From Jaminaea rosea (taxonomy: Eukaryota; Basidiomycota; Exobasidiomycetes; Microstromatales), in assembly GCF_003144245.1 (NCBI RefSeq), contig NW_020289992.1:369015-433014 (forward strand): a stretch of DNA of 64,000 nt, in the 5' to 3' direction. Made by a program: the position numbers and the translations under genes. Within the stretch, counting starts at the first letter, position 1. Each line of letters begins with the position of its first letter. A model generated the notes under the pieces. It searched no databases, was not told the DNA's origin, and saw nothing but the letters and a program-made list of their open reading frames with translations. Shown here piece by piece: positions 5,934 through 64,000 of this stretch.

Positions 5934-8703
5934 TCAATCATCATCAACGTACTCGACCTTGTAATGAGTCTCCAAGCGAGACTGCTGGCGCTGTCGACGT
6001 TGCTGCTGCTGCTGCCTCTCAGGCTCACCAGTCCATCGATCGTAAGTCGTAGCGCCACGCAACGACTGTCGTCTACCGGTACCACCGCTACCTTGACCGC
6101 CGCTGCCACTGCCGCTGCCACTGCCGCTGCCACTGCCACTACCACTGCGCCAAGCCGCCTCCATCCTCTCCGCTGGGCTCACGATCTGCCCCACCACGAA
6201 GCCACCGAATCCATCCGGTTGGCGCTGAGACGGCTGAGCTGGAGGAGGAGGTAAGGAAGTGCGTCTCGAATCAGGCCCCAGATTGGAGCTCGAGGTAGGT
6301 CTAGAAGACGAAGAGGTCGACGGCATTGATCGCCTAGCGCTCGGTCGCTGGTTCGACTGAGATTGACGTTGAGCCTGAGGCGGCGCAGTCGTTGTAGCTC
6401 CATATGGGTAGCGTGCCGGGCTCAAGGGATCTGGAATTCGGATCTCGATCTTCTTTCCCTTGGGACCCACAGCAGATGAAGTGGGCATCACTGAGCCCTG
6501 CCGGCTTACCGCGGTAGGAGGTGCCACGCTACCTGGCGCAGTCGCAAAAGAGGACGCAGAGGTCGATGGTGGCGACGCCCTTGCATGAGCTTGGGAAGCC
6601 CGCTCTGATGCATGGGTAGGGCCTGAGAAGCTGATGCGAGAAGGGGTAGACGGCTGATGCGGGCTCGCGGAGACGTCCCTGCTGCTTCTCCTTGGCGGGA
6701 GGGCAAAACGGCTCAGTGTAGGCGCATCCTCTCGCAGGACTTGCGGCTCATGCTGCGCCGATGTTGAGTCGATTGTGGCCCTTTGCGGTCCCCACGATTG
6801 GTAGAGGCGAGGATTGGATAGAGCCTCGTCCTCTTGACTGCTACCGCTCTGCCCGCTCTGCCCGCTCTGCCCGCTCTGCCCGCTCGAGGTGATGATTCGC
6901 GAGAGGGGTGACTCGTCGAGGAGCGGAGAGGCGGGACGATCCCCTTCTCCGTCTACGGCTTGGTCGCGGGCGTCTTCGTAGTGGGAGCCGGAGAGACGTT
7001 CCCGTAGGGCTCTCCACCAGGCGTGACGGCGACCAGGTGCGGGCGGCTCGAGGTGGCTAGCTGGCTCTTCGTCGTCGTCATCATCCTGTTCAGCTCCACG
7101 GTGCGGACGATGGTACTGCGCCAGCTCCGGATGAGCCACTCCGCGCTTGGCATAGCTCAGCGACTCCCCTTCTTCCTCCTCCTCATCATCCAGCTCTCCC
7201 TCAAGTCCCCTCGACATCACCATACTCATCGACTTCTCCTCATCATAGTCCGTCCCAGCCGTTCCCGTACCCTGGCTCCCCGGCGGAGGAGGATCCTTCC
7301 AAGGAATCTGCATCCCCTTCTCCCCTCCCTTCTCCGTCGCCAACTCAACCGCCAACGCCTTGCTTCTCTCCCTACCCAACGCCCTAACAAGATGGCGATG
7401 CTTCTCTGCGCGAATCTCATCCACCTTCGTAACCATATCGTCTCTACCCCGCGACTTGGCCATGACATATCGCCCACTCTCGCCCATCTGCCTCGCCCAA
7501 TCCCTAAAGTCCAAGACGTCCAGCAACGCCCTCCATTTACTGGTTTTCCTGCTCCTATCCGCCGGCCGGTAGATCAAGTACGTGAACGCCTTGATGTGCA
7601 GTAGCGAGAAGATGACCATCTCGAACGTCTCGAGCAAGGCGTTGATGCCCGCTTGGACGTCGAGGGAGGTCATATGGTCCGTGGCGTGGATGACCTCGAA
7701 GTAGGCTAGGATGGAGAGGAAAGTGGCTTGCCAGAAGGTGAGGAAGACGACGGACTTTACGGCGAGGAATTTGAGCACGGGGGAGTAGGGTTCGAGGGGG
7801 GTTTGAATGGGGAGGTAGAATTGGATGATGCCTGGCGAGAGGTACGAGGCGTCAAAGGGATGTCAGCTGAGCTAGGGCGGAAACGTGTATCGCTCTCGCA
7901 GCACACTTACAGTACATGGCAATGGTCACAGAGATGGAGATGGCCAGACTGATCCATATGTGCCCAAAGTTGGGCATCCAGCTCTCGATGCAGTACAGGT
8001 CCAGCGCCTCCAGCACGACGGCGAAGATGGTGCACAGAGGGCGAACAATGGCGTACTGTAGGATGGAGACTAATGCCAAGGCGCCGGAGCATTCAGATGT
8101 CAGCTACGCTTCGTATTCGCTCGTAAAGAGGCTTGCCGTGCTCACTCTTCATCAACCACAAGAAGTGAAGCCCATCCGGCCTGTACTTCCACCAACCCAT
8201 AGGCCAAAACCATTTCTCCAGCTTGACCTGCCTGAAGACTTCGTGCTGCTCAGCGCGGGTATCGCCTACGTATTGGAGGAGGAGGTAGAAGAAGGAGGTG
8301 ATCACCACCGCTTCATAGCAGTCCCGGATGGTCTCGTAATAGAGCGCCTAGCGCGACGAGGGGGTAGCGTGTGAGCACATACTAGCAGCCCCATTGTCGT
8401 CTCTGAATCTCTGTCTCGCTCGCTCACCTGCCTGTAGAATAGGTACCCCGCAAAGCTCACACCGCTATACACGGGCGGCATGAAGAGCATCCGCACAATA
8501 TGTCGCTGTTGAGGCGGGCACGTGTAATACGTCAAGTGCTTGACGATGAGCCAGATACTGGCGCACCATGTGATCAAGGTGAAGATGCCCGATAGCAGCC
8601 ATCCGACATCGTGAGTCTTGAAGTTGAGCTGACCATCCACCAAAAAGGGAACGGGGTCCAAGGGTGCCTCGGGCGCGTGAGGACAGGTCGAGTTGAGTCC
8701 CAT
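5934..8703 (-). CDS. TMEM184/organic solute transporter alpha (DUF300) family membrane protein
   Basis: Four exons: 8703-8428, 8347-8146, 8069-7911 and 7831-5934, giving 844 residues. Exon 1 starts MGLNSTCPHAP and carries hydrophobic helices (VGWLLSGIFTLITWCASIWL, ending GYLFYRQ). Exon 2 has ALYYETIRDCYEAVVITSFF, a hallmark of the DUF300/TMEM184 family. Exons 3-4 supply further helices (ISILQYAIVRPL, FYLPIQTPLEPYSPVLKFLA, KSVVFLTFWQATFLSIL). About seven transmembrane segments occupy the first 300 residues or so. The remaining long tail is cytosolic-looking, Ser/Pro-rich and acidic, with a four-fold SGQ repeat and a GS dipeptide run. Family members are implicated in vacuolar, plasma-membrane or solute-transport roles, and the substrate is not known here. 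Splice joins restore conserved residues, which supports the model. Confidence 0.87.
6845..6888 (-). repeat. in-frame short tandem repeat coding for SGQ triplets
   Basis: A 9-bp unit (tctgcccgc on the + strand) is repeated about four times in tandem inside the tail of the TMEM184-like gene. It encodes consecutive Ser-Gly-Gln units. It is a likely length-variable site. Confidence 0.8.
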
Positions 8704-9116
8704 GCTTGTTCGCGCTAGCCGGTGGGCTCACTCGAGGTCTGTGTCGTTGATGAGACGCTGTTCTTCTATTGCCGTGTATTCGTTACCGGGTAGAAACAAT
8801 GGTGCGACGAGGACGCGAGGGAGGGATGTGCGAGTCGTGATGAGGCGTGAGAGGACGTGAGGACGTGTGAGAGAGAGAGAGAAGTCGTGGAGCCGGGTCG
8901 TGAGGTAGGGATGAGGTAGAAGGAAAAAGCGACGCCGAGAAGAGGAGGAGGATCGAGCTAGGAAACAGGAGCCATGCTGATGAAAGAGGAAGGTGGTATA
9001 GATGGAGAATAGGAAGTCGACCGTGCTTTGCTTGCTTGCTTGCTTGCCAAGGGGCATTGGACGTTAAACGGGTGGACCTGCCTGCCTGCCCAGCGTCGGC
9101 CCCACCGCACCGCGAC
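8704..9116. other. upstream region of the TMEM184-like gene
   Basis: 413 bp with no supportable gene. It contains GAGAGA runs near 8870-8883 and a GCTT tetranucleotide repeat at about 9027-9047. It probably holds the promoter of the TMEM184-like gene and the 3' end of the zinc transporter gene. Confidence 0.45.
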
Positions 9117-10841
9117 TCAGGGGCTTGAATCGCATCGCGGCCCTCGCCAACTCGATCGCCTCCTTTCCGTGCCGCCGGTATCTCCATTGATAGCCTCGCT
9201 CGAGCGCGGCGGTGACGTGCGCATCATCGTGCCCGACGGCCTTGCCTCATTGATCGAATCATTGCTTGCAGCACGAGGTGGGGTGGCAATCATGCACTGA
9301 GCTGTCTGCTGCCAGGTGTCGTACTCGACCTCTACCGTGCACTCCTCTACGCCCCACGACTGGAGAATAGCACGAGCGCGGCGTAGGACGTCGGACGGCA
9401 TGATGAAGAAGTGGTAGAGGTGAGGGTGCGGCTGCGCATTCGGGTTGGCGCAGACGTTGGGCTTCTCGTCGGGTAGGACAAGGAGTAGTTTGACCGAAGC
9501 GATAGAGTGGTGCTCGTTGAGCTGCCAGATGCGCAATTCGTCGATGCGTAGCACGCCGGGAAGGCGCGTGAGCTCCGAGGAGATGCGCTCGATATTGACT
9601 GAGCTGGGGGTGCATTGTAGGAGGACCATGCCTGAGCGGAGGGCTGCGAGTGTGTGGGAAGAGGGCAAGCGGTGGTCAGCGTGAGCTGATCGCTATTTGA
9701 CGATGGATCATTTCTCACTCAGAGGCATCGCCGTGCAAATGATGCTGAAGCCAATGGCCAACGAGAGAGCTGCATCGACATACGAGGTCACCTCGCTCTG
9801 ATGGAGACACAGGGATATGATGCCGACGATGATGACGCCGATGGTGTTCAGCGCATCGCCGAGAATGTGAATGACAACGCCGGATGCTGCGAGGCTGCGA
9901 TGGGCAAGAGCATGCTTTTCTTCGTCGGTCAAGTGGTCCGTGGACGAGCGAGGCGACTCGAGGCGAGGAGAGCCGTGAGAGTGGCCATGATGGTGTCCCT
10001 CTGTGCGAGCGAGAGCATGCGACGGTGTGGTGAGTAATGATAAGAGGAGGGGCGTGCACGAAGGTGCCACAGTAAACTCACCATGGAAGACGAGAGCCAT
10101 GATGCCATTGCAGACGAGGGCTGCTGCTCCCATGCCAATGACAACGACGGGGTGATCGATAGCTGGGGCGCGAAGAGGAGGGGTAGAGAATTTGCATCAG
10201 TCTGACGCCCCCCTCGACTGTATGCTGCTCGCCACGCACAACCTACCTCGACGATCAACAAAGCGTTCCGTGGCCTGCAGAATGATGCTGAGCCCCACAG
10301 CGATCAGAAAGGCTCCATTGAAGAACGCGCCAACGATGTCCGCTCTCTTCCATCCATAGGGCAGTCGAGCAGACAAGACTGCGAAGCGCGAAGGCTTTTC
10401 CAAGGGCACCGACAAAGGCGATGCCACACGGGCTGGTACGCGGGTGAGTGGGAGGATGCCTTGTGGCTGCGGCGGCATCGAGTCGGCTTCATCTGCGTGG
10501 TGCGTGAGGCTGATGCTGGCGTAGAGGATGAGGTAGCCTACGAGGTCGGAGATCTGTGCGGGGGAGGGCGTGGTGAGCTTGGTGAGCTGACTTGATGGAA
10601 GATGCATCTTGCCTGTGCTCACCATGTGGAAGGCGTCTGCAATGATGACGAGCGTCGATGTCAGGCGACCAACTGCATGGCAAGAGGTGGGATCAGATGG
10701 TCAGCTACGGCTCAACGCTCAGCTACATCTGTCTCCCACCTCGCGTCACTCACCCAGTACCTCCCCAATACAGATCAAGAAGCAGATGGCCATGACAATT
10801 TCAAGCTTGCGCTTGCGCGAGAGGGGCAAAGACGTCTTCAT
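9117..10841 (-). CDS. CDF-family zinc transporter (Zrc1/Cot1-like)
   Basis: Six exons: 10841-10754, 10672-10623, 10553-10247, 10162-10082, 10000-9719 and 9643-9117, encoding 444 residues. The family metal-site signatures are visible: IIADAFHM in helix 2 and HILGDALNTIGVII in helix 5. A His-rich loop (GHHHGHSHGS) lies between helices 4 and 5. The cytosolic C-terminal domain starts LRSGMVLLQCTP and contains INE/DEL..WQLNEHHSIASVKL, typical of zinc CDF dimerisation domains. The protein is expected to move Zn2+ (perhaps Co2+) in exchange for H+, out of the cytosol into vacuole or ER. All intron phases are consistent, and exon 2 is only 50 nt. The C-terminus ends in a Ser/Arg-rich tail. The exact metal and organelle cannot be read from the sequence. 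Confidence 0.92.
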
Positions 10842-11772
10842 CCTCGTCGATACCGTCTCCACGGTACGGGGTTAAGCGGTCGGTGTTGGTGGTAGTGAAG
10901 AGGTAAGGAGAGGTGTGGATGCGTCGTGATTCGGGAGCGTGAGCGTGGGCGTGAGCGTGAGCGTGATGGAGGCTAGAGCTGAGCTGAGCTGAGCTGCACC
11001 GCTACCGCTAGCTGAGCGTAGCCGTGGATGGCTTGTCGTGAGGACGAGTCGTCGAGCGTGGTGAGAAAGTATCGTTGACTGGCGGGCGAGTCAGTCGTGT
11101 GAGTTGGTCGTGAGTGGAAGGGAGGGAAGCCAGAGGCAGCGAGCCAACTTCAGACTAGAGGAGGCTTGTGTGTGTGTCGCACGTCACCTGCTTCGCCTAT
11201 CACATTGCGAGCCCAGCCATGTCAGCAACAGAGCGACGTCGCGTGCGTGAGTGACTCGCCTCGCCCCGCCTTTCTTCCCCCTCGCCTCCAGTCTCCCGTC
11301 TACTCTACTCTACACGGCGGTGTCTCCGGCGGACACACTCTTCTCCTTGGCCTCTGCACAACAGTTGCAACCAGACAAATGGATTTCACTCGCGCTCACA
11401 CACTTGCACCTGCTCCCAGGCGCTCGACTCAAGCGCGCCCATCCCCATCCGGCGCCGCTCGCCGAGGCCGGAGCGCGTGGTGCGATGCGGCGGTGCCTGA
11501 AGAGAAAGGGAGGAGGCAGGAAGAAGAAGCGCAGAAGGCGGGAGGAAGGGCGAGCGGCGGGACGAGAAGCGCGACGCTCAATTGATCCAATCAACTCGCT
11601 CGTCACGAGCGGAAGACTCGCCGAGCCGCCCCGCGGTGTTCCTTAATGAGTTCTCAATCAATCAATCAATCACACAGCCAGACGAATCGACGGGAAGTGC
11701 ACCGAAGGAGCCCTTTTGCTGCGATTGGTTGGTATTGCTGAACGGATGAGCGAGGAAGAGAACAGCGTAAGG
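10842..11772. other. intergenic region between zinc transporter and AVL9-like genes
   Basis: 931 bp. The left part should be the zinc transporter promoter, with GAGCGTGAGCGTGGGC-type repeats near 10935-10965 and GAGCT repeats near 10977-10995. The right part is downstream of the AVL9-like gene and contains a TCAA tetranucleotide run at about 11656-11671. Open frames here are short, Arg/Pro-rich and unconvincing. No tRNA seen. Confidence 0.45.
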
Positions 11773-16148: not shown

Positions 16149-19100
16149 TCACTCCTCCATCTCCCTCTCATTACGCTCCCTCCTCATCTCCAATTCGTAG
16201 AGGTCCAGCTCCTCACACTTGCGCAAGGCAGGCCCAATCGCAACCCACTTGGCCGCCTCCATCGTCCCGCTTCCCTCCCCACTGCCATAGCTGTCTTGAC
16301 GATGCTCCGCCGCCTTGATCCATCGCGCGAGCTGAACAAGGACGGAACGCGCGTCCCTTGCCAGGGCCTCCTTGGCTTCGAGACTAGTGGCAGCGCGAAG
16401 GGAAGCGATGTCGATGATGGGCGAGTCCCACGAGTCACCGCCATCCCCATGCCCCTCGCCGTGGCTCTGCATCTGAAAACCATCCTCTTGCATCCCGACC
16501 TCACTCACGCTCCTCTTCCCACACTGATCCCCCAATGCAGCATCGATCCACTCAGCAAACTCGTCCCTCAACCCCATCTGCGTATCGTAAACCCTCCCGT
16601 TCCCTCCACCAGCACCCCGCGGAGCAGGTCGACTCAGTATGACGCCCATGAAGACCTCGCACTCGGTCAAGCTGAAGGTCCTGTGTTCGGGGGAATAACG
16701 GTCCGCGAGAATCTGCAGCTTCTGGTAGAAGGAGGCAATCTGTACGCCCTCGTAGCTGAGGTCTGGCGAGTCCCAACCTGTGGGTAGGTGGGAGCGTAAT
16801 TTTGCCCAGAGCTTGGTTCGGAGGTGAGATTCGGGGAAAGAAGGGGGAGCAGATCGACCCCATTGGTCTATCGAGGCTGTCACCTCTATGCGGCGGAATA
16901 GCTGGCCGAGGGCTTTGTTGCTTTGGTAGTAGGTGACTGGGCGCGAGAGGAGGGTGCAAGAGAGTGGATGAGTGTCCTCTGCCGTGGCCTTGGAGTGTTG
17001 GTGGGGACTCACACTGCTCACGTTGCCATCTTTTACGACGTTCGCTCGATCCCGGGGTGATCTCGACGCGCGACTCGGACTGCATGTAGTCGGGCTTGGC
17101 ATCGTCCGGTAGGCGGGGCATACTGAGCACGGGGCAAGGGAGAAATAGGTCAATCAGCCTCCTCAAGCCTTGCTGCCTCTACCTCTCTCTCGCTCACTCA
17201 CCTCCGAAAGTCAGGCGCCACTCCACTCTTCTGGTAGTCCACCGCAATGCTAGCCATCTCCGCCAGCTGTATGCACTGTGGGTCTTCCACGCCCTTGGGA
17301 CTACGGTCAGACAGGCACAGATGACGATCGGCAATGGCGCTGATTCTGTCCGTTTGGATGAAGGTGAGGAAGAACTTGACCACATCCTCGATAGTGCAGG
17401 GGCGATCCAGCTCGGTGGACTTGGCAGGGTCGTAGCCCGCGGACTGAACCGTACGCTCGGGAAAGAGGGCCGGGTTCTGGATGATGTTGTACAGGTCGCC
17501 GTCAAGGTCACCTCCCGCCAGCTGATTCGAGAGGGGACGATGCCCATGCTGCGAGAAGACGATGCAGTTGTACAGGTCGTTGAGCGGGGATCCCTCGGGC
17601 GGCTCGCCTTTCAGCTGGGCGAATTGGACATCCCCTGGAGCGAGGTAAGGGCTACGCCCTATGATGCAGCGGCCCGTGAGGAAAGTTGTCTCGATGCCTC
17701 CTCCGTCACCGCCGACTCGAAGCTGTGCGTAGACTTCCCCTTCCTTGAGCCAGCCCGTCTCGTCCACCACGCCCATAAGCGTCCAAGCCTTGTCCACCTG
17801 AATTCTTCCCCGGTACTTCATGTTCTTGAGCGTGGCCGTCAAGCATGTCATGTTGCAGCGCTTCAAGTAGTCGACTCGCACGGCATCGATGTCGAGGACG
17901 CGAGCCAGCGTCTGAAAAAGGTCGGCGGCACGCGGAGCTGACCCGTAGCCTGAGATGCGCAGAAGGCGAATAGCGGCCGCGGTGCTGGTGACCGACTCCC
18001 GTACCGTGGCTAGAGCTCGGTCTTGCAGCTTAAGCATGCTCTTCGCCGGTACGCCGAGCGTCTCTAGCAAGGCGATGAGGGGGCGATTGAGGTAGAAAGT
18101 GAGGGGTCGATCAGCCGTAGACGCCACTTCGAGAGCGATCTTGCCTCCTTGGGCCGTCTTGACCTTGAATTTGGTCATCGAGTCGCGAATGAAGACCTCA
18201 GGTCCGTTCGCAGGCAGACTCGAGTCGTAGGCCAGGACGCCCTTTGCTCCTGCCATTCGAATCTGGAAAACAACGGGAAGCACTCTCTTCTTGCCACCTC
18301 GACGCTTGCGGCCGATACGGTTATGGAGGCGCTTCAACGCAACGGCGGAGAGAGTTCCGCACCCGTCGGAGAAGTCGTAGACGCGGTTGCGCCAGGCACG
18401 AGCGATATCATCAAGAGCGCCGATCTTGTCGTGGTCAATCTCGACGGCGAGGTTCGTCGTTGTAAATGCCTGCCCCATTCGAGCCGCGTACTTGGCGGGG
18501 ATGCGAATGCTCTCGAGCTCGCCGATGCCAGCACGAATCGAGGCGGCTGAGACTTGCTCGCCACTGACAGCATTGGTGAAGTCGGTGACGAACCAGGCCG
18601 TGTGCTGCTTGAGCGATGAGGTCGAGAAGGCAAGGAATTTGAAGAGGCGACCGCCGATACTAATGCCGTCGGTGAGGAAGTTGTGCCAACGCTCAGAGAA
18701 GATCCTCGAGTCTTGGTCGATGACAAAGGAGTCCCAGAGCCTGGAGCCGTCCTCCTCGCCGAAGGTCACACGCATGAAGTTCTCCTCTTGGCCGGGGTAG
18801 CGACGGATGATGCGATTGCCCTCGTCTAGGAAAGCGCCGTCCAGTGTGAGACTTGTAGGGGTAATGGTCGACGAGTGGATCTCGATGCCTTGATCGATTT
18901 CGCCCATGAGGCCTGGTAGGGAACCGCTGAGGGCACGCTCGAGGGATGTCTCGAGCAGCTCGCTGAAGCGCTCGAAGGAGCAAGGGGCGTCCTCTCCCGG
19001 CTGGCGATGGAAGAGGTCGGTGCACGATCCTTCGAAAAGGCGAGCAGCCTGCCACGGCGTGAGGTGCTCGTTGATGCGGCAGATCAGGGGAATGAGATTG

Positions 19101-20701
19101 ATGACTTCGATCGGAAGGAGGTAGCCGGCGTGCATGCGTTTCTGGACCTGGAATGCCAGAGGGAAAGAGATGGTCGGGTAGAAGTCGTCGAGGGTCTTGA
19201 GATGGGTCGCCAGAATTGAGTTACGCATGTCTCGGCCCGGCTGAAGGATGATGACCAGGTCCGCGATCTTGCTCTGCCACCTGTAGAGCCAAGCTTCGAG
19301 CTCGTCCTCATCTCGGCACCTCACCTTGATGACGTAGCAGAATGGCGTGACTGGAGCGTGATTGGCGTCGAGGTGATCGAGGCGAATGAACTTGATGCGA
19401 GGGAAGCCATCGTTCATGGGCATTGCTCCAATCTGGCGACTATGGATGGCGATGTTGCCTGACTCGATGTTCTCGTCGGCGAGGTACATTGGCAGCCTAG
19501 GGGAGGGGTGGCAGGCCACCATACAGTAGAATCAGGCTTGAGGAGAGATGAAAGACAGGCGCCCGCCCGGTGAGCACTCACTGGCTACATTCAATGTAGA
19601 AGTCGTCTTGATCGACGATGAGGCGCTCGACGCGGGAAAGCGAGATTGAGATGAGCTGTTGGTCGATGCGAAGGATCAGGCGCCCGAGGTCGGCGTCGAT
19701 GTACAGAGTCGAATGGTGGTCGTTGAAGACGATGCTCTGCCAGGCGGGGGCGAAGCTGGCGAGAAGAGGAGCAAGGTTCAGAGAGTGAGCGATTAAGAAT
19801 TTGCCGCTCGCAACCACTCACCGTCCTTTGTCATCCCACCTTTAACAGTGAGGGATCAGCAGTGTGTCAGCGCCGCTACATTGATACACGCTCCGCTCAC
19901 TTACATGCCAAGCTCGCAGTGATGGACGAGAGGCTCAACCTTGACCTCATCTTCTTCCTCGTAGTCGCTAGGCGCATCCTCCAAGGCTCTCTCTGGGCGA
20001 AACCTCAGCGACTCGACCTCCTGCCTAGTGAGTCGATGACGAGCAGGGTCAGACTTGCTAAAGGTGAGCCAATTCTTGCCAATCTCGACATTCGAGGGGC
20101 GAAAGCGGGGGACGTGCGACGTCACGGCGCGAAAGAATTTGTCCTGCGGGCGCGAAGGGCCGAATATTCAGAGATGGGATTCTCCTGCAATTACACTGCG
20201 CTCGCGCTGCTCACCGCCTCTTCTGCGCTAGGGAAAAGCACCAAGCCGCACTCCATCACGCCCCTCCGCAGCTGAAGCCTGGCTTTGAATCGCGGCGGGC
20301 TCGTGAAGTGAGTCTTGATGGCGTTGCCGATCTTCTTGCGGAAGTGACGCGAGTCGATGTTGCTGGGCAGGTCGGTGACGGTCAAAAGCGCAGTAGGCGG
20401 TGTGGGGTCGAGGTTGTTGACCATCGTTGGCCCTCGTCGAGAGAAGCCTGGATTCTGTACTTTGGGTCCGCGAGGAATGGCGGGTGGAGCTGACGTGCTG
20501 ACGCTTGGCTGCCAATTGGAAGGCGCTCCTTTCCCCTTGCCACCACGCGGCATTTCGTTGTTGACAATGCGAGTCGACTGAGTGCGCGTGCCGGAGGGGG
20601 ATCGTGCTGGCGTGGAGCGAGGAATATCACCGTTGATGACAGAGCGTGAGGGCTGAGCGGCGGTGGTCGATGCTGAGCTGCTGGCGTACGAGGGCTGCGG
20701 T

Positions 20702-25194: not shown

Positions 25195-26952
25195 TCATCC
25201 TCGTCGACGTCGAGTGATGTAGCGACGAGGTACCGCGTAGCCTTCCTCGGCGTTGCGGAGTGGCGATTTACGCTTTCTGCCTCGTCGTGAGGAGGACGTG
25301 GTAGGAGGCAGTAACACCTCGACGTCCTCGGCGTTGCTGTCGTTCGAGTCGGCCTGCGTCTCTGTGGGTGTGCCGGCTGCGATATCTTCGGCGTCCTCCT
25401 CCTCCTCCGCGTCCTCCTCCTTTTCCTCGTCTCCCTCCTGCTCGCTCTCACTCTCCTCATCCTTCACCCTCTTCCTCTTTCTCCCACTCCTCCTCTTCCC
25501 GCCTCCAACTTTGACCCCACTCCTATCAATCCTCCTCGCGACTCCACCTGCGACCTCTTGCTGTAATTTAGTCCTCCATCGCTCACTGGCCTGCAAAGCT
25601 GTCCTCCCTCCAACGAATTTCGCGATTTCCTGCCAACTCCAATGCTTCTTGCCCGGTTGAGCAGCTTGTAAGTCGGATTGGGCTATGGCGGCTTTGAGGC
25701 GTTCGTCCTCGTCGAGGGTCCAGCGGACGGATTTACCTCGAGGAGGTGCAGCGGCGGAGGAGGAGGAGGAGGTCGTGGCGGTGGCAGAGGCGGGCTCCCC
25801 GTTGGTCTCGGGTTGCTCGCCAGACTTCGTCGCCCATGGTATACGTGCTCCTCTCTTCTTCCACCTCATACGACATTGAGCTGGCGTCCTCTTCCCCACA
25901 AGGATGGAGACACGCGTCCAATCCACCTTTTCCAGATCCCCTCCAACTTCTCCAGTCGCTAGCTGCTCTTCAATCCCTTGCCTCAACCTTTGTAATTCCC
26001 CCTCGTTCCAGATCCCCCTCGTATGCGTATTCTTCAACGCGCGCCTAAATCTGTCCCAAACAGCGCTACGCCTCTTTCGTGTGCGCTCGGCCAGGATTGC
26101 CCACTCGAAACCAAAGACGGATATGAGGCGAAGTAGCTCCTGATCATCTATGGCTGCGTGATTCTCCATCTCCTCATCCTGATCGGGGAGGAGACGAGTG
26201 TACGAATAGAGGGCGTCGTGCGCCTCCAAGACGGGTAGAGAGGGATGCGTCGCAACGAGCTGCGATGCGACGTGATGCCAATCGATACGGCTCCCCTGTG
26301 CATTGACGAGTTTGCGTAGCTCGGCCTCCTGCTCGGGACTCAATGTCATTTTGCTGGGTGGACCCTTTTGCACGCTCATGATCCAACGGGTGCTACACGC
26401 CGCACCGGTGTGCGCAGGCGTGGACCCTTTGGGGGCGATGCGCAGTGCGAGGGAGTGCCAATCGAATCCGGGACCGAGGGCGCAGCGTGCGAGTTGCTCA
26501 TCGCTGAGCGAAGCTACATAACCTAAGGGGTCCGGATTACGCAACTTGGCCGCTTCGTAGGCGGCTAGACGTTTACATTCTGCCTCGACACAGCGACGCA
26601 AGGCTGTGTCGTCTACCTTGTTCCAGGCGGGGCGACAGGTCACTTCTCGTAGGTCGTGGAGCTCCTTGTTTACCTGCGCCACAGCGGGCAGTCGAGCGCC
26701 GAGGATTGGAAGGCTGGACGAATGCGTCGAGGTGGAGACGATGGATCTCTCAGCTATATCGGATGTGTGGAGCTCTTCGGCCAGATCGAGGACTGATTCG
26801 ACTTGAGAGAGCTCGACGAGGGAGCGGGGAAGATCTTCTATGGCGTGGCAGAGGGAGGATTGGAGACGGGTGTTGCTCTCCAGGGCGAGGGAGAGGCGAT
26901 GCCGCTTTTCTAGGAGCTCACTGAGGGTGGCTCCTCGAGGGAATGACGCCAT
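25195..26952 (-). CDS. multi-Myb/SANT DNA-binding protein (SNAPc4-like or related)
   Basis: A single exon of 585 residues starts at MASFPRGATL. Several Trp-spaced Myb/SANT-type repeats can be seen. They include one around FEWAILAERTRKRRSAVWDRF, one around GIWNEGELQRLRQG ... WTRVSILVGKRTPAQCRMRW, and one around VRWTLDEDERLKAAIA ... WSWQEIAKFVGGRTALQASERW. The C-terminus is very basic then acidic (KRKRVKDEE, then Glu/Asp runs), ending in RRYITRRRRG, a likely nuclear localisation and nucleic-acid-binding tail. The N-terminal half resembles the arrangement in SNAPC4-like or Bas1/Reb1-like proteins, but the family is not certain. It is expected to act in the nucleus in transcription. It is convergent with the kinase gene and divergent from the SET-Tad3 gene. 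Confidence 0.8.
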   Translation of the reverse strand: MASFPRGATLSELLEKRHRLSLALESNTRLQSSLCHAIEDLPRSLVELSQVESVLDLAEELHTSDIAERSIVSTSTHSSSLPILGARLPAVAQVNKELHDLREVTCRPAWNKVDDTALRRCVEAECKRLAAYEAAKLRNPDPLGYVASLSDEQLARCALGPGFDWHSLALRIAPKGSTPAHTGAACSTRWIMSVQKGPPSKMTLSPEQEAELRKLVNAQGSRIDWHHVASQLVATHPSLPVLEAHDALYSYTRLLPDQDEEMENHAAIDDQELLRLISVFGFEWAILAERTRKRRSAVWDRFRRALKNTHTRGIWNEGELQRLRQGIEEQLATGEVGGDLEKVDWTRVSILVGKRTPAQCRMRWKKRGARIPWATKSGEQPETNGEPASATATTSSSSSAAAPPRGKSVRWTLDEDERLKAAIAQSDLQAAQPGKKHWSWQEIAKFVGGRTALQASERWRTKLQQEVAGGVARRIDRSGVKVGGGKRRSGRKRKRVKDEESESEQEGDEEKEEDAEEEEDAEDIAAGTPTETQADSNDSNAEDVEVLLPPTTSSSRRGRKRKSPLRNAEEGYAVPRRYITRRRRG

Positions 26953-27297: not shown

Positions 27298-29844
27298 ATG
27301 GCGCTGGACGAGGCAGATCCACCGCCGCCGCCGTCGACGAGCAATGGCCATCGCCACACCAAGGGCCTAGTAGCAGAAGAGCACCATTACCCACCTTCGA
27401 CACCGCACCTCAATCCGCACAATCTCCTCATCCTCTCCCACCAGTCACGAGGAAGGGGCGTATATGCCTCCAAATCGATGAGCGCAGGTACTTTGTTGGA
27501 GATCAGCCCCGTCCTCGTCTTTGAGCCAGAGGAGTGGCGCAATTATGGCTGCAAGACTGTACTGGATAGCTATACCTTCAAATGGAGCGGCATGGGAGCG
27601 CATGCACTTGCCCTCGGACTTGGTGAGTCACTTGGCTGGTGGTGCTAGATGAGGTTGAGGGATCCCTCCAGCTGACACCATTATATACTATCCCATCCAC
27701 CTCACTACCCACCAGGCTCCCTCTTCAATCATTCCCCGCACCCCTCAGTCTCCTTCACACTGGACAGACCCTCCCACTCGATCCGCTACACCCTCGTCCG
27801 CGACGTTGTAGCAGGTGAAGAGCTCTGCATCTCCTACGGTCCATGGGGCAAGCAGTACGAGTCCACAAATGGCAACGTCGTAGCGGGAGAAAGTGACGCA
27901 GCTGCAGACGAGACGGATGAGGAACAGCGTTGTAGCAGGGATCTGGACGATATGCTTCGAATTGGGCAGGAGAGAGGAGCAGAGGGGAGTGGAGCAGAGA
28001 GTGAGGCGAGTGGGAGTAGTCCGAGGAGACAGCTACCAAAGAGGAGAACCAGGACGAGGTATACGGGGGCGAGTGGGTCTACTGCGGCTCCAGCTCTGGC
28101 CTCAGCCTCAGCATCATCGTCGAGCGCCATCAAGGATCAACAGCAACAATCACCCGCATCTCTCACCCCGCAACCGCCACGCCGCACAACAACGCGCCTC
28201 ACCACGCCACCCCCATCCATCCAATATGCGGCCAGCTGCGTCTCCTCCCACCCAATTTGGCGTCTCACTTCCCTCCCCGACCCCGCCACCATCCCTCTAA
28301 CCCTCATCCCCTGCTGGGCCCTTACCATCTCCCCCACATCGTCCAGCTCCGTCCTCCCCTTCCTCCGCAAGCACTCCCGCGTCCTAGGCCGTGGTCCACA
28401 GCTAGGAGGCGAAGAAGACCCACTGAGGCACGCAAAGACGCTGAGTAGGAGGCAGGAGGATGGCGGCAAGCTAAGGGCACTCGTATGCCCGCAGGCGGCA
28501 TTGAGTGAGGAAGAGGTGAGGAGCCTAGCTGAGAGGGGGTTCGCGGCTGAAGCGGAGGTGGTCAAGGTGAATGTGGCTAGTAGTGCTGCCCCGCTCAAGG
28601 AGAGGGCAGGGGAATGGTGCGCTTCTTGGCCTGTGGCCTTCCGCAGCGTGCAGGCAACCGCGCCCGTAGTTCCGGCTCCTCCTCCAACTACGGCGGCGGC
28701 TGCGACTTCTCCGCCGCAAGCAGGAGCTGCAGCCACGAATGGTAGCCGAACAAACACAGGCACTGGCACTGGTACAGGCACAGGAAGTGGAACAGATTCG
28801 CCCACCCCTGCCCCGGTCCCGGCTCCCTCCCCCTCGCCTCAACCTCCCAACCTCTTCGTGGACCGACGAGCAGACTGCGCCTTCTGGTCACCGCCGCGCA
28901 CAGCATGGGTGATCCGCAAGCTAGCCCGATGCGTCCTGACGGCTATGTCCGCCTCATCTCGCGGCGAACTCCCAATCGCAGTGCACATCTGTCCCTCCAT
29001 CCTCCCCTCGACCACAATCGGCACCAGCGGCGGCGGCGGTGGAGGTCCGGACGGGTCCGCCCACGCGCCACTGACGCTGAGCGCTGCAGCCACAACGGCG
29101 GCCGGGTGGGATGTGGATGGCCTGCCCCTCGAAGGGGGAGAGGCCATCGAGGTGGACGCGGCGGATACTCGGGTGGGGCAGCGCAACCCGATCAAACACG
29201 CGGTGGGGAACGCCGTTAGTCGCGTGGCGGAGATTAGGGCAGAGAGGAGGGCAGCGGTGGATACGGCTGGGGCGATAGGGGAAGGATCCACAGCGGCCGC
29301 TGAGTATCTGGCCGCAACATCATCGACGGGGACGACAAGGGGCTCCGCCTTTTCCTCCTCCGGATCGGGCTTGGGCTCGGGCTCGGCCTCGGGCTTCGCC
29401 TCCCCTTCAGCATCAGCATCCGCATCAGCATCAGCGTCAGGGAGTCGTCCGGACTCCCCCTCCTCAGCATTCCAACCCCCTTTACTCAACGGACAAGACT
29501 ACCTCCTTACCTCTCTTACCCTCTTCACCACGCACGAGCCATGCATCTACTGCAGCATGTCCCTCGTCCACTCCCGTGTACGGCATGTAGTCCTCCTCAC
29601 CCCTTCTCCTCGTGGATCAGGAGGATGCTGCGGCAGTCAGCTGCCAGAGAGTAGGAGGTGCGCAGAGGATGGAGGGCCCTACGCTTTGCACGAGCAGAGA
29701 GGGCTTAATCATCGCTTCGAGGTTTGGAGGTGGAGAGGGGGATTGGATGTGGTGCAAGAGGAGGTGAGACGCATCAGTGGTGAGAAGGTGGATGTGGCTG
29801 ATCTGCTCGATTTGGCAAAGTGGGGGAGGGCGGTTGATCCTTGA
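27298..29844 (+). CDS. SET domain fused to Tad3-like tRNA adenosine deaminase subunit
   Basis: Two exons: 27298-27622 and 27716-29844, encoding 817 residues. Residues about 40-150 form a short SET domain: SRGRGVYASKSMSAGTLLE, then NHS at 113-115 across the intron, and GEELCISYGPWG (142-153). After a low-complexity linker, residues about 230-360 resemble the N-terminal domain of Tad3/ADAT3 (LPFLRKHSRV, LRALVCPQ, WCASWPVAF). The C-terminal deaminase fold has H603-A-V605 (Tad3 has Val where the catalytic Glu sits in Tad2) and the zinc motif P717-C-I-Y-C721, followed by SLVHSRVRHVV and HEQRGLNHRFEVWRW. A Ser/Ala/Gly-rich insertion of about 60 residues separates the zinc ligands. Tad2-Tad3 makes inosine at tRNA position 34. 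The frame is open throughout the second exon, so fusion rather than two genes is the simplest reading. Confidence 0.85.
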
Positions 29845-30088: not shown

Positions 30089-33000
30089 TCACCTCTCAGC
30101 GGTAGGCAATCGACTGAAAGCCACCGAGCTGGTAGGCGTACTGCTTCCCCCATTGCCACCACCTCGAGGAGTCGACGCGCCACCCGGCGGAGGTGAGGGT
30201 GCTGAGGCTAGAATGCCTTCGCTGGGCGTATCCTCACGCTCGATGTGCGTCCTAGTTCTCGGACCAGGTTGCGCTCCCTCTTCCATCGAGTTGCGCCGTG
30301 ATACCACGGGCGAGCTCCCTCCCTCCCTCTCCTTCTCCTTCTCCTTATCTCGCGACGAGAAAGGTTTAAGCAAAGAAGACAACCGCTGCGCCGTTGTTGA
30401 CGAGCTGCTATTGTTGCCAAGCGTGTTGCCCCGCGCCGAACGGTGGTGTTTGACATCGTCGTCCCGGAGGAAGGAGACGGCTGGTCGACGCGAGGAGTCC
30501 TGCGTGTCCGAGCGAGGGAAAAAGCGCTCCGACGTGTCGCTGCGTGGGAAGCGTTCGCGTTCGTCGGTCGTGGTGGTGCGGGGCATTCGGTCGTCGTCAT
30601 CTTCGTCGTCGTTCCTTGCCTGCTCCTTGGCGGCGCTGTTATGCCTCCTCCCGCCCCTCGAGGTCGACTCGCCTATCCACTTACTGAGCGCCCCACTCCT
30701 CACAAGCTCCAATGCCGCGTTCGTTGGTCCCCACTCGTGATGACTCCTGTCGGACATGTGGTCGTCCAGTTCCTCGCGATGCGTAGCCAGCCACGCATGC
30801 GCAGCGGAGAAGGATTCCTCTTCTCCATCTCCCTCGCCCTGCTTCTCAGCAATGTCCTCCGCCTCCTCTTCAGAGAGACACACGACGTGCACCTCGGGCT
30901 CGGCGAGGCGAGACTCCATGTACTCGATGAGAAGCTTGGAGCCTTCCAGCCACGAGCGTGCTTTCGGGTAGTGTTGCTCCTTGGCTGTGACTTGCTCGGC
31001 GTGGTCCTTCTCCTGCTCGTCGCGAGAGTCACACCCGTAGGAACGAAGCCGATGACGCTCTTCTTCACGGACGTCGTCATCCTCCTCCTCAGGCCGGATT
31101 TGACCGGCAGCGAGCTCGCGATCCATGCCCGCTTCACCCAAATCCCCACCTCCAGCCCGCAGACGTGCCTCACGCTCCCTCTCCTCCTCGCGGGCACGAC
31201 GAGCTTCAGCCTTTTTAGCCTTGTACGCTTTAGCCTCTGCGGTATTGTCCCCGCCCCACTCGCACGCAGGGTCCTCAGCTTCGTCCGCAGCCCAGTCGTC
31301 GATCCCGTCAATCCCGTCGTCCTCTCCCTCTGCAGCCTCGAGGTCGCGCTCCGTGCGCGTATTGAGGATACCGTAGCGAGAGCGACGAGAGCCGGACGAG
31401 GAGTCGCCGCCGCCCCCCGCATTGTCGTCGTCATTGCCGCTCGAGCCGGAACCAGACCCACTGGCTTCTCCCTCCCCCTCGCGTAGCTCTTTCTCCGCCT
31501 CACCACCAATGGCCCCCCTTCCAATAACGCCCAGCTGCGCATCGAGAACTCGGCGAATCTCACTCATCCCTCCGCCCTCCACCTCCTTATTGGAAGCCAT
31601 CGTGTCTCCCGTCCTGAACCTGCGCATCCGGTTGAGCCAACCGGGCTCCCCGCCCGCATCAGGCCCGAAGGAGGGGTTGCGCGACCAAGTCCTCGTGATG
31701 GTCGTGGCGCGCTTGGAGAAGGCGAAGAAGGGGATGGTAAGTCCGTGTACGGTAATACTGCACAGGACGAAGAAGAAGACGATGGGCTGAATAGTCAAGG
31801 CGAGTACATCGTTTGTCGTCTGTGGTGGATCATTAACCACCTCAGGCAGCTCCGTCCTGCCCAGCGTGGCAATGAAGATGGCCCCTACACCGATGGGACC
31901 AAAGTGACCACTGAACATGGCTTCGCGGAACGTCTTGATGTCGGGAATCCAGCGCCAGAGGGCTAGGATGATCGGGATGCGCTTTGTGGCTAGGACACAG
32001 ATTGCTAGGACGAAGCAGCGCCACACGTTGAGGGAGTCGGCGGCGTGGGCGAACTCGTACCACGGCATGAGGGCGCCGATGTAGATGAAGGTAGCGCAAT
32101 TGAAGAGGAGGTCGACTATATTGGAGAAGTTGGAGTCCTGAGCGGGCGCGAGGAGTAGTGAGGTCAGTCCAGTGCTGAGCAAGGGATCAAAGGAAGGAGA
32201 GGCGCACTCACCTCCGTCTGTTTCGTGAACCACCCATCCCACGCAAAAGCCGTCCCGCAGGCGAAAGCCGCAAGGAGATCATCACTGCCCAGCAGCACAT
32301 TGACGCCCATGCTAGCAATAGCCAGACTGACATATTGAGCCACAAAGGACTCTCTGTCAACGAACTTCTTCCTCTCCGCAAATCGCATGGCCTTGCGTGC
32401 CGCCCACCCAATGAGGGCTCCGAGGAGGGTTCCGAAGATGATTTGGTATGCAAGGGCATCGTAGAACCATTCGGCTATTGCCTTTCCCGTGTTATCGCGA
32501 TGCACGGTGAGGAAGAGGGCGAGGTACAAGAAGGGGAATGCGGCTCCGTCGTTACATCCTGACTCGCACTGGAGCATATAGCGCAAGTGGGCAGGTACGT
32601 GTTTTTCTGCCCAAGGTCCACCAACGACGGCCTGCGCCAGGATGGGGTCGGTAGGGGTAACGCAGGCTGCGATGACTAGGCAGTTTAAGAAGTCCAAACC
32701 GGGGACAAGGGCGCGAATGAAGGCAGCAGTGACTATCCATCCCCAGAGCATGACGGGCCCCAGTAAAAGGAGAATGGAGCGCCAGTGCCTTAGCAAGTAC
32801 TTCTTTGGCAGCTCCACCCCAACGGCAAAGACGGACAATGCAATGGTAACTCGCATGATCTCCAGCGTGATCTCATCCGTAATATGCCCTCCAGGTGCGC
32901 GAGTTTCGTTTCCAGCCCAACTACTCGGATTGAACAGGTTCAACGCAGCAGGCCCTACAATGATGCCGAAAAGGGCTGCAATGGGTGCTTCACCGAGGTA

Positions 33001-33159
33001 GAGCTTCTCCTTGATGAAGAGGGATAGCATGCCGAAGATGACGATGAAGAATCCCAAGCCTACGTAGATGAGATGCGGGGCATTGACTTCAAAGGGCTTG
33101 AAGCTGCCTGGCTCGACGGATTCCATGCCTTCCGACTCCATGCCGGGCGCCGGAGCCAT
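30089..33159 (-). CDS. nha1: Nha1/Sod2-type Na+(K+)/H+ antiporter
   Basis: Two exons: 33159-32212 and 32137-30089, encoding 998 residues. The membrane domain (about residues 28-440) matches fungal plasma-membrane alkali-cation/proton antiporters. It has IYVGLGFFIVIFGMLSLFIK, ACVTPTDPILA (166-176), ESGCNDGAAFPFLYLAL with the CPA1-type Asn203-Asp204 pair, and later NCATFIYIGALMPW and SGHFGPIGVGAIFIATLG. The long hydrophilic tail is rich in Asp, Glu, Arg and Ser, as in yeast Nha1, where the tail tunes activity and salt tolerance. It probably exports Na+/K+ in exchange for protons at the plasma membrane. The intron is placed where QTE meets DSNFSNIVDLL, with donor GTGAGT and acceptor CTCAG in phase. 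Confidence 0.93.
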
Positions 33160-34159
33160 GGCGGCGCAGTATGAGAGGAGGGGGAGGAGGAGGAGGAGGA
33201 GGAGGAGGAGGTGTGGTGGTGTAGTAACGACTACGGGTGGGGTGGAGGAGTTTTAAGGCGACCAAGTGACGCTGTTGGTCCCGAGCATGAGCGTGATATG
33301 CTGGGAGGGATGGATGGAAAACAGTAGCGTAGCGTGGCGTGACGTGATGGTGATGGAGGTGAAGGCAAAATAATGCAGGCACGTCGAGCCAACTCGATGA
33401 CGCCCTTGTGCCCCCTTGCCCGTCCCGCCGCCTAGTCCGAAATTCACATCGACGACGACGACGACGACTGCGAGACCGGCGGGCGGGCAGGCACGGGAAG
33501 GGGTCCAAGTCTCCCAGTCGAGCAGCAAGCAGCCGAGCGAGCCAACGGAGGCTTGGCGCTGCGAGTCGAGTCGAAAAGCTGCGAGGGAGGGCAGGGGGGG
33601 ACGGAGAGAGAGAAAAAGAGCATCGTGAGTGACGAGGCAGGCTAGGTCAGAGATGTGGTGTGGGAGTGGGATGGGATGCTAGCTAGCGGAGCAAGGATAG
33701 TGCGATAAGAGTTCAAGGACAGCAGAGTGTCCCACGATCCCATCAGTCGTGGGACAGGGCCGCTCTGAGAGGGACAGGACAGGATGGATGGATAGTATAG
33801 CCGGCATCGAGGCTGTGCCATGCTAATCCAACTAAAAGCACGGGGTAGCGAGCCAAGCATTCGCCATCTTAGATATACGCAGACATTGCCAAAGATAGAC
33901 CATCCAAGGCTCGTATGGTGAGCCTGTCTGCCCTCATGCTGTGCTGGCTTGCTCTGAGATTTGCACGACACATGTGCGGGGATGAGACAATATTGAGGAT
34001 GGTATTTCGATGACTACGTGAATGAAATCGACGGCTGCTCGGGCACGCCGAAAAAGATGAGAAATGACGATGACGCTGCCGAGTGGCGAAGCTTGCTAAT
34101 GGTGATGAGCGGCCCGAGCCAGACTGCCACAGCCTCTCTGCCTCCTACCTCGATAGCAG
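33160..34159. other. 1-kb intergenic region, Nha1 promoter side
   Basis: A kilobase with no supportable gene. Close to the nha1 start is a GGA trinucleotide run (33181-33212), and around 33452-33470 there is a CGA trinucleotide run. Between about 33640 and 34080 the sequence is less GC-rich and less coding-like than the flanks, and it includes a perfect 10-bp hairpin at 33728-33756. It may hold a long 5' region of nha1, the 3' end of the TPR gene, or a non-coding RNA. I recognise no tRNA or snRNA. Confidence 0.45.
33728..33756. repeat. perfect inverted repeat (10-bp stem, 9-nt loop)
   Basis: TGTCCCACGA (33728-33737) pairs exactly with TCGTGGGACA (33747-33756) around a nine-base loop. No T-run follows it, so it is not a simple terminator. 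Confidence 0.7.
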
Positions 34160-47989: not shown

Positions 47990-48762
47990 TTAGAGAAGCA
48001 CAACAGCACCAGCGGCAACGGCTCCCATACCGGCGATAGCAGCGAGGTTGACCTGTCCGCTGAATCCGGCACCGCTCGTTGAGCTACCCGACTTGCTCGC
48101 TGAGGCAGCGCTCGAGGTAGGGCTAGCTGCGGCCCCCAGGGCCGAGGTGGAAAACCCGCTCGCACCCGTAGCAGCCCCCGTGGAAGACGCGCCAGCAGCA
48201 GCAGAGGACGAAGCTGCACCGGGTGCGGCCCCCTCCTTGCCCTGCGCGGCGGCCATGACGGTGCTGTTGAACTGGCCGGTTACGTTGTCCAGCTCGAAGC
48301 GTGCAGAGAAAGCCATAAAGTCCGCCGTACCGTTTGCTGCTTGCTTGGTCGACTCCATGCGGATGAAGCTGCGGCGCGAGCCAGAGGGTGGTTAGCGTCA
48401 GCTCCTTGTTCCCCCTCTTCTCTCTCCGCTCACGCTGACGCTCGCGCCCCCCTAACTCACTAGTACTTGCCCTTAGGCCCAATATCCTTCGGCACCTTGT
48501 AAGTGATCTTCTCCTTGTCGGTATCCAAGTTAGAAGCAACCTGGTCCAACTTGAATTGTGCACTCTCACTCCCAGCAGCGAGCCAGATATTGTATCCTCC
48601 CCACGCCTTGTTCTTGGGTGACTTGCCGTTGTCCTGCCATTGGATCGAGAGGCGTTTACCCCCGTCTGCGCTCGTGGTTGCGACGGGTGAGGTGATGTAG
48701 ACTGTGGACAGGGCGGGGGAGGCCAGGCCGAGGAGGGCGAGACAGACGGTGGAGAGCTTCAT
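47990..48762 (-). CDS. Kre9/Knh1-like N-terminal domain protein, probably GPI-anchored
   Basis: Two exons: 48762-48461 and 48368-47990, encoding 226 residues. A signal peptide (MKLSTVCLALLGLASPALS) is followed by the domain: VYITSPVATTSADGGKRLSIQW and NIWLAAGSESAQFKLDQVA, then YYFIRMES across the intron, and FMAFSARFELDNVTGQFN. This is the Ser-Thr-rich wall-protein domain found in Kre9/Knh1 and in many basidiomycete GPI proteins. The rest is Ser/Ala/Gly-rich and ends in a hydrophobic tail (LAAIAGMGAVAAGAVVLL), as expected for GPI attachment. It probably sits at the plasma membrane or cell wall. The exact role (beta-1,6-glucan or other) is not determined. Confidence 0.88.
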
Positions 48763-53544: not shown

Positions 53545-54032
53545 GCTGCCTTAGTGTTTGAAGGGTCCGGGGGGAAAGTGAAGAATCATCTATCAATCTC
53601 CTCGAGCATTGCTCTTATACCTCTCTCTCCTTTCGTTGTGTCCTTCTCGAGGTCAGGTCACGCCCGTGCGCAACGGCAATAAAGTAAAAAGTGCTCCGCC
53701 TCTCCGCTTCTCCGTGTCTTGAGGGGCCAGTGGGAGGAAAAGAGAGAGAGCACAGCGCCCAGCCAGGCTGTGTGGGTGTGGGGCGCGGCGCGGAGACGAG
53801 TCAAGTCGGACGAGGGGCGACGACAAGAGACGGACCAAGGATTCTTGCCAATGTTGATCGCAATCATCTCCCATCACAACTCATCTCATCTCTGCCCGCC
53901 CGCGTCCGCCCTCGTGCCGCTCTCGCCCGAACCGGCTCTCATCCCACCTCTTGCCCGCCTCTCCAATCAGAGCAGCAGCAGCTCATTCAATCTCGTCTTG
54001 AGAGAACGAGGCTGTAGCAGCAGCGGAGAAGA
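53545..54032. promoter_or_regulatory. divergent region, polyol dehydrogenase and HD-domain genes
   Basis: 488 bp between starts. A CT/AG-rich patch lies near 53730-53750, and a CAACTCATCTCATCTCTGCCC stretch lies near 53877-53897. No recognised element. Confidence 0.45.
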
Positions 54033-57000
54033 ATGACTCGAGTAGAGCGCACACGGAGCAGGGTAGCAGCCTGTCGCTGCCTCAACGTGCGGGTGCGATA
54101 TCTAAGCCCCACCAGCACCAGCGGCGGGAGCAAATCTTCCTCCTCATCCCCCTCCCCCTCCGCGCAAGGCCAAGAGGCTCGCACCACCCGCGTACAGCTC
54201 GACGACTCGTCCTCCCCTTCATCTACATCGGTATCCGTCTCCCTGCCCCTCCTCGTAGGCCGTGAACTCGTCTCCCTCGGTGGACCTTTCACGGTTCCAG
54301 CGCTGCGTTGCCTGCATTGCGGTACGACGGTATATGCGGTGGAGAAGGCCGCCTCACTTGGGCCGAGTAGGGCTGTTGGGTTTCAAGCGAACGCCAATGC
54401 CAATGGGGCCAAACAGCAACAGCAGCAGCAGCGCGAGGCTTCCCCGTCCCCCGCTCAGAGGAGCGCGAGTAGAGATGGATTGATCAAACCACACGATGGG
54501 CATGTCTTTCTGCTGCCTGGGCTGGTGTACGATGACGAGATTCAAGAAGTCGAGGGCAAAGAGAATTTCTCGTCCATCTATGGGGTGTCCATCACGTCTG
54601 GCTCGCCTCGTTCTTTGGATCAGGCTCAGCCATCGACTCAGTCTCAATCACAGTCGCAGCGTCCCGCCTTGACGACGCAACGAAGCGCCACGAGCCACTA
54701 TGGTCTGCAAGGTCTCCCCGCGCACCTCGTCACCACACCGCCCACCTCGCCATCCCCTTCTTCCTCCTCCGCCAACATCCAACTACCCTCCGTCGCAAGC
54801 TCAAACCCGCTAGCCTCAGCCCTAGACGCTACGGGTCTCGCAAAGCTCAGAGCATGGAGAGTGACGGCCGAGCAGGAGGTCATGGATCTGGTGCGGCAGA
54901 AGAGGAGGGAGCTGGATGGAATGCTGGCAAGAGCGCAGAGGGAGGCAGAAGCTGTGCTCGAGCAGGCACGCACCGTTCCCCCACCGAGCACAACGATGAT
55001 GCTGCGAGGAGCAGAGGGCAGCAGCAACGAACTGCGGGACGAGCACGACCACGATCTCGAGCATGAGCACGGCAACGTAACCACCTCCTCCGCCGCCGCC
55101 GCCGCCAACGCCCCCTCGATCCTCCCCGCCTCGGCCTTCACGCGTCGTCCCCCCTCCTCGCCAAATGCAAATCTATCCGCCTCGCTCTCAGCACTCAGCG
55201 CCAGCTTCGCCATGCGAGGCAAGGGGTCCGACTCGACGATGAGCCAGGCAGAAGACTGGGCGCAGCGTCGTCGACTCAAGGAACGCTACCCCGAGGGGGA
55301 CCACAGCGTTATGACCTCCGCGGCTACTAGTGCGGCCACGTCCGTCGAGAATTCAGATAGTGAGACCGTCAGGCGTGCGCGTACCTCCGTTGCCGAAGAA
55401 GAAGAAGAAGAAGCGGGAGAGGATAGGGGAAGAGGCCGACAACGTGTGGCGCGGGTACGCACCCCGAGTGGGGATGAGCAAGTCCCCGCACGCAGCAGTG
55501 CCAATGCCAGTGCCAACGCCAACGCGAACACGGGCACGCCCCGCTCCCCTCCCGGCACCAAGACACGCCCCACAATGGCCCCCTCCTCCCTGAGTCACAG
55601 CGCAGGCAGCAAATCGCTCCCCTCTCACCCTTCGCTCGACCTGGGCGCCCAGTCAGGGGAGGGGGACGCGGCCACCCCACGTCCGGGCGGGCGAGTAGGA
55701 AAGGCCCCGCCCTCCCCCTCGGCCAACGTGCAGCTACGCCCACGCAATCCGCCGCCAAGCGGAGCCGAGCCCCTCAAGCCGGCTACGCGACAACGACTGG
55801 GCGAGTCGGCTTCGGCTTCAGCTTCGAGCTCGACTCCTGACGTCCCCGGCGCGAAGCGCAAGGTCGCATTCGCCGAGACGCCGGACCATGCGCCGACCGT
55901 GAGCCTTACGCCGCCGGAAGACCAGATGAATGGGGTGGATGGGGAGGGTGAAGATGGAGCGGGGAGGGAGCCAGTAAATGAAGGTGAGGCGGCCGTTTTC
56001 GATATCGATGAGGAGTTGAGCGTCGATGGTCACGTTGATGCTGGAGAGGGCGAGGAGAGGAGGGAGGCGCTACAAGGTGGGCAGGAGAAGCTCGTATCGC
56101 AGGAAGAGGATCTGGGCGGTACACTAGACGATGCAGACGCGGACGACGACGATTCTTCTGCGGTGGGGACAAAGGGGGAGGAGAAGCGCGATCCATTAGG
56201 CGGCGTCCCCGCAAGTGTCGGCGCCCACCATGCCGGCTCCCTCTCTGCCCTCGTGGCCGCCAGCGAAGGTCTGGACGCGCATGCTCGTCGAGCCTCGTTG
56301 GTGGATAATTTCGATCCCGCCTCGCTCAGGAGGGACGGCCGCATCGCACCCGCCAAGAAGGGCAGCCCGCCCGCCAATGCTACTCGCGGCACCGAGCCAT
56401 CCCGAGCAGACGGAGGAGGAGAGGACAGTCCACGTCGCACCGCCATTGGGTATCGCCGTAGCCACGCTCAAGGCAACGCCGACGCGGAATTGAGGCTCAG
56501 CGGCCTGCTCGCCCCGCATGCCCCCTCGCACCGTTCGTTGTGGAGGAGGACGGCCAAGAAGTATAGTATTGCGGAGGAGGATGAGGAGGAGGGCGAGGAT
56601 GGGAAAAAGGGCGAGCAGGAGGACGAGGGAGACGACAGACAGTGGAGTGCATGGCAGGAACGTGCCCGACAGTTGGAAGAGGCCAAAGTGAAGCGCGATA
56701 AGGAGGAGAAGGAGAGGGTGCTCGCCCAATCCCTTCCGATGCAGGAACGACGCACTGTGGGCAGTACGGCGCGAGGCATCCCAACAGGAGCAGTCTTGTC
56801 CAGCGTAGGCAGGGAGAGGGAGACGAGCGGCTTCGATCGCGAGCCCAAGACGAGTTTACCCTACCAGGAACGACAGATGGTTCCCAGCTTGAGGAGGGCG
56901 ACGCGCCGAGCGCTCCTCGCAACGGGGACGGGGGACCGCAAGGCGTCTCTTCCTACGATCAAGGACACGGATGTTGAGGGAGACGATGTCCCGCGTATTG

Positions 57001-63647: not shown

Positions 63648-64000
63648 GATGATGATGAAGAAGGGCCACGAGCTCAATTTGGCGCAGCAGGACAAGATCT
63701 ATCAAGCGCGAGCGAGGAGGCCGGGCCGGCCAAAGCCATGAGCGACTGCTACGCTGATTGGCTCGGTGATCCGCTGTCGATCCAGCCCCGATGACGATGA
63801 TGAGATTGACAGGACGAGGTGCGAAAGGAAAGAAAGAAAAAATCACCCCGCGCCGCCCCGCCCTGCAAGACGCACGGAAGGGCGCCAAGAGTCCGGCACT
63901 TGATTGACCCCGCACGGGCCCCGCCCGCCTCCACTCACTCTGTTCCTGAACAAGCGGCTCAATCCTTCCTTCGCCGCGGCGTTGAATGCCAGATTTGAGG
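63648..64000. other. right edge, upstream of the Kef-type gene
   Basis: 353 bp to the end of the window. It should hold the promoter of the antiporter gene. Reading frames here are short and Arg/Pro/Cys-rich. No gene or RNA recognised, though a neighbouring gene may begin just beyond the edge. Confidence 0.4.

Follow-up and report, generated by a model that had tools for sequence, protein, structure and literature searches.

Does the forward-strand frame at bases 27298-29844 of the 64,000-nucleotide stretch of fungal DNA analysed here (the window) encode a single protein in which a SET domain is tethered to a Tad3-type tRNA deaminase subunit, or do its two halves give rise to separate products? 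SET domains methylate protein lysines. A lysine methyltransferase of this kind and Tad3 are ordinarily distinct proteins, and the fusion of two genes is frequently a sign that their products act together. Examination of the locus leads us to the view that its product is most likely a Tad3 subunit with a lysine methyltransferase of the Set7 type attached to it.

Read without splicing, bases 27298-29844 (+) meet a stop at codon 117, and the removal of one 93-base intron yields an 817-residue protein whose stop codon ends at 29844. The one open frame of the original prediction exists only once bases 27623-27715 are taken out, an excision that its residue numbering already presupposes; on the 817-residue product the motif positions it gave are exact (NHS at 113, ELCISYG at 144, HAV at 603 and PCIYC at 717). 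The first exon (27298..27622, +) comprises the start codon, in the context CACTTCGCC-ATG-GC, a 44-residue leader and the first half of the SET domain, with the closest in-frame stop 5' of the start lying at 27091. The inferred intron (27623..27715, +) falls within the SET domain and displays the splice signals GTGAGT...CTCAC...CAG, with the CTCAC placed just before the CAG. Its removal restores the stretch LALGL-GSLFNH, which is gap-free at this point against the solved structure 5h6z and thereby provides independent support for the 93-base intron. The second exon (27716..29844, +) encodes the remainder of the SET domain, followed by a linker and the whole Tad3 part; its coding frame contains a single stop, the terminal one, and the other five frames contain 10-24 stops each.

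This structure bears on the possibility that two adjacent genes have been merged wrongly, either in the assembly or in the gene model. That the fusion is known here from the sequence of one assembly alone speaks for such an artefact; however, the junction falls inside a single exon whose frame stays open, neither a stop nor an intergenic stretch separates the halves, and just one of them requires a start codon of its own. We regard a merger as very unlikely. The poly(A)-like hexamers AATAAA, ATTAAA, AAGAAA and AATGAA are absent from the 455 bases 3' of the stop, which we count against the fusion, albeit with little weight because fungal signals are loose.

A divergently transcribed neighbour (25195-26952, -) encodes Myb repeats (four Myb_DNA-bind_6 stretches), and 345 bases lie between its start codon at 26952 and that of the SET-Tad3 gene. 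Two sodium/hydrogen exchanger regions occur in the window, one at 30089-33252 (-), presumably split over two frames by an intron, and another at 61845-63698 (-). Further away are an ORF encoding an RNA-dependent RNA polymerase domain of the cellular type (17201-19531, -; Pfam RdRP, E 2.7e-152) and a 1289-residue frame (54018-57884, +), in which the sole Pfam matches are C-terminal HD domains (HD_3, residues 1094-1231) and the long front part has no Pfam match. ARAGORN found no tRNA genes in the window, and its sole Rfam match, a borderline hit to 'Bacillus-plasmid RNA' at 48385-48442 (-; 31.2 against 31 bits, E 0.0071), is probably due to chance in a fungal genome.

The SET domain occupies residues 45-155 (27430..27855, +, with the intron inside). 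The Pfam SET model is matched at residues 52-150 with an E-value of 9.2e-11 over positions 1-105 of its 105, and the best solved-structure match of the whole protein is to 5h6z, 'SET domain-containing protein 7' (E 1.1e-25, residues 45-155), with 47% identity over the SET part. The stretches GRGV, LALGLGS, FNH and EELCISYG, which include cofactor and catalytic motifs, are invariant with respect to 5h6z. Other SET structures were recovered with E-values of 7.9e-10 (the vSET protein of PBCV-1) and 0.90-0.95 (KMT5A/SETD8), and by these comparisons the SET part lies nearer to Set7 than to the other SET classes for which structures have been solved. The short SET domain that had been predicted is confirmed, and its type can now be named as Set7-like. 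The structures 5h6z and 5ww0, which we take to be those of Set7 of the fission yeast S. pombe, share the same SET type over residues 45-155 of SET-Tad3; in contrast, the solved chain is a stand-alone one of 169 residues, whereas here the SET domain continues into Tad3. Likewise, PBCV-1 vSET (1n3j) is a related small SET domain, but this viral enzyme, which methylates histone H3 and is 119 residues long, stands alone. Going by the title of a 2019 paper by Shen and colleagues, S. pombe Set7 is reportedly an H3K37 methyltransferase required for gametogenesis.

Scans of viral contigs with residues 39-157 of the SET half (17 stretches) and with a SET alignment, A1 (38 stretches), recovered no relatives. 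A deaminase alignment, A2, recovered 15 stretches with one relative (L003), which shows a TadA-like ORF at 9716-10270, the ORFs of the region 8500-11500 being judged by eye. None of the viral-contig scans with SET or deaminase queries yielded a fungal relative. Two relatives emerged among 26 stretches in a scan of genome contigs, both in Chitinophaga records (L001 and L002), each with a 129-residue SET-type ORF at 7986-8372 that is related to the Set7 type with 36% identity. In L002, where Pfam confirmed the ORF as SET, it adjoins genes for MarR, an aromatic amino acid lyase and urocanase; no deaminase was detected at 1e-5 among the seven ORFs scanned there, which encode these four proteins together with an amidohydrolase, a bestrophin and MgtE.

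Beyond the SET domain, a low-complexity linker with a basic stretch (residues 156-278; 27856..28224, +), delimited by the flanking domains and by its composition, leads into a predicted Tad3 N-terminal, tRNA-binding domain with a core at about residues 305-366 (28303..28488, +). The latter was located by a pairwise shuffle test: across all 817 residues the N-terminal segment of yeast Tad3 aligns best at this place, between the SET domain and the deaminase region, scoring 53, where the shuffles average 23.0 (sd 3.8) and none of 2000 reaches that score. The same segment gives no signal against the linker (421 of 2000 shuffles as high) or against residues 498-600 (775 of 2000). The test used a yeast segment already picked by phmmer and so leans towards a match; furthermore, phmmer with the whole protein gives this domain 0.9 bits and, with residues 274-421 alone, recovers no Tad chain, both results being counted against the fusion. 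For these reasons we take the N-domain result as support and not as proof. The arrangement of a putative N domain followed by a deaminase region is the order expected for Tad3.

The deaminase region itself (residues 702-783; 29494..29740, +) is defined by its matches to solved chains and contains the zinc motif P717-C-I-Y-C721, the one occurrence of PCxxC in the 817 residues. E-values of 1.8e-8, 4.5e-7 and 5e-6 were obtained against, respectively, yeast Tad3 (7bv5_C), a deaminase from a trypanosome (8aw3_3) and 7nz7_B, a 'probable inactive tRNA-specific adenosine deaminase-like protein 3', and bacterial TadA entries rank below these Tad3-type chains (best TadA 5.6e-5). Several results in this half are counted against the fusion: the Pfam deaminase model stays below its cut-off (20.8 vs 25 bits), the NCBIfam TadA model falls far under its own (25.8 vs 150 bits), and an AlphaFold model of residues 279-817, computed without an alignment, has a mean pLDDT of 37.2 with no residue at 70 or above.

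HAV at residues 603-605 (29197..29205, +), a candidate recognized by the three-letter motif alone, is a plausible pseudo-catalytic motif in which the catalytic glutamate of HAE would have been replaced, and could also be due to chance: of 2000 shuffles of the whole protein 289 contain the triplet, as do 69 of 2000 when residues 421-716 alone are shuffled. No search aligned the HAV stretch with Tad3, even with the low-complexity residues 641-693 omitted, when the match to 7bv5_C reaches an E-value of 2.4e-9 and still starts C-terminal of HAV; phmmer with residues 195-645, 485-544 or 584-640 likewise gave no Tad match. The description of this half as a complete Tad3-like protein is slightly overstated, as the middle of the deaminase domain, HAV included, stayed unaligned in every search; the unaligned HAV is counted against the fusion as well. 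The half resembles Tad3/ADAT3 (7bv5, 7nz7 and the trypanosome 8aw3) in presenting an N domain followed by a PCxxC deaminase-type region, with HAV as a candidate motif, but differs in the SET domain and linker placed in front and in the low-complexity inserts within. The in-frame joining of a SET domain to a Tad3-type subunit, as predicted, emerges from the 817-residue spliced frame and from the best matches of its two ends (1.1e-25 for SET, 1.8e-8 for the deaminase).

The same frame could nevertheless serve two products from one locus and a shared promoter, a SET-only and a Tad3-only protein made beside or instead of the fusion, either by splicing of bases 28073-28235 or by initiation at an internal methionine. 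The alternative intron (28073..28235, +; GTGGGT...CAG) would shift the frame to give a 248-residue product with the SET domain and linker only. It amends the earlier statement that neither a stop nor a good splice pair lies between the halves, which is right as to stops and overlooks this one weaker pair. The in-frame ATGs of the 817-residue product fall at residues 1, 61, 99, 188, 519 and 723, and M188 (27952) is the sole one between the SET domain and the Tad3 N domain. Moreover, alternative promoters are known for Fusarium TAD2 and TAD3, and alternative starts for TAD2, according to the accessible text of PMC11087585. However, pairs of this sort are not rare, and this one does not stand out from their background: among eight long ORFs chosen by the analyst from the 35 stop-to-stop frames listed, four, SET-Tad3 included, have one weak pair each and four have none. 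The context of M188 (GACGAT-ATG-CT) also looks weaker than that at 27298, as judged from general knowledge. We give separate products an appreciable, though minor, chance. The genome sequence favours the fusion and leaves room for isoforms, and with moderate confidence we propose that one gene, expressed as a single transcript, encodes a two-part protein in which an N-terminal Set7-type SET domain is tethered to Tad3, most likely with both parts working.

In light of the above, the C-terminal ~540 residues would constitute Tad3, with an N domain that binds tRNA and a second domain of the deaminase fold. This part would act as the non-catalytic partner of Tad2, with which it would produce inosine at position 34 of tRNA. 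A Set7-type SET domain, with the motifs for S-adenosylmethionine binding and lysine methylation kept, would make up the N-terminal 155 residues, and the flexible linker of ~120 residues would hold it beside the tRNA-binding domain of Tad3. Most likely the deaminase half would retain its normal essential function, and the methyltransferase tethered to it would modify lysines of a partner in the same place, candidate substrates being histone H3, the reported target of Set7 in fission yeast, or a member of the Tad2/Tad3 complex. The original prediction offered two possible roles, a coupling of methylation with inosine formation or a stabilisation of the deaminase.

Two known systems offer partial parallels. 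In the Fusarium Tad2-Tad3-Ame1 mRNA-editing complex, as described in the accessible portion of PMC11087585, the N domain of a fungal Tad3 binds tRNA and is also the docking site of an accessory protein, Ame1; unlike the SET domain here, Ame1 is a separate DUF726 protein, neither SET nor fused. In trypanosomes, the available text on Trm140 (PMC6382703) likewise describes a methyltransferase acting together with ADAT2/3, but this enzyme, a protein in its own right, acts on tRNA (m3C32). The first parallel bears on a further reading, in which the SET domain serves Tad3 as a front piece for docking or stabilisation, in a position comparable to the docking place of Ame1, and catalysis is not what was selected. 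That Ame1, by binding the N domain of Fusarium Tad3, alters the editing targets of the deaminase (accessible text of PMC11087585) lends this some appeal; yet the catalytic and cofactor motifs are kept, which is unexpected for a dead scaffold, and we consider such a front unlikely. The preservation of these SET motifs makes us favour an active tethered enzyme over an inert scaffold.

How far such a protein departs from known Tad3 can be judged from the solved chains and the literature. The matched Tad3-type chains (7bv5, 8aw3, 7nz7, 7nz9 and 9hmm) are 317-369 residues long, and the accessible part of PMC11087585 describes Fusarium Tad3 as a protein of 428 residues in which a tRNA-binding domain at the N terminus is accompanied by a deaminase domain; both agree with the claim that known Tad3 proteins lack a SET domain. 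No SET-Tad3 fusion was encountered among the matches listed from the literature searched, which has most subscription papers outside it. One paper contained both 'Tad3' and 'SET domain', and its abbreviation list gives Tad3 there as 'Telomere-associated protein 3'. The word deaminase is absent from the accessible text of a survey of plant SET domains (PMC5725981). The fusion may already be present, unremarked, in fungal databases; were it common there, the domain arrangement would still be one that is undiscussed in the literature searched.

If the fusion is real and conserved, it predicts an unreported functional link of Set7-type lysine methylation with tRNA wobble editing. Going further, and as a speculation to which we assign a small chance, a lysine methyltransferase of the chromatin type may have become a lasting part of the wobble-inosine enzyme in a fungal lineage, linking methylation of histones or of Tad2/Tad3 with tRNA decoding capacity. 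Fusarium Tad3 has a part in sexual-stage editing, according to the available text of PMC11087585, which may be set beside the tie of fission-yeast Set7 to gamete formation. If such a link holds true, the supply of inosine might, for example, be matched to a sexual or gene-expression programme.
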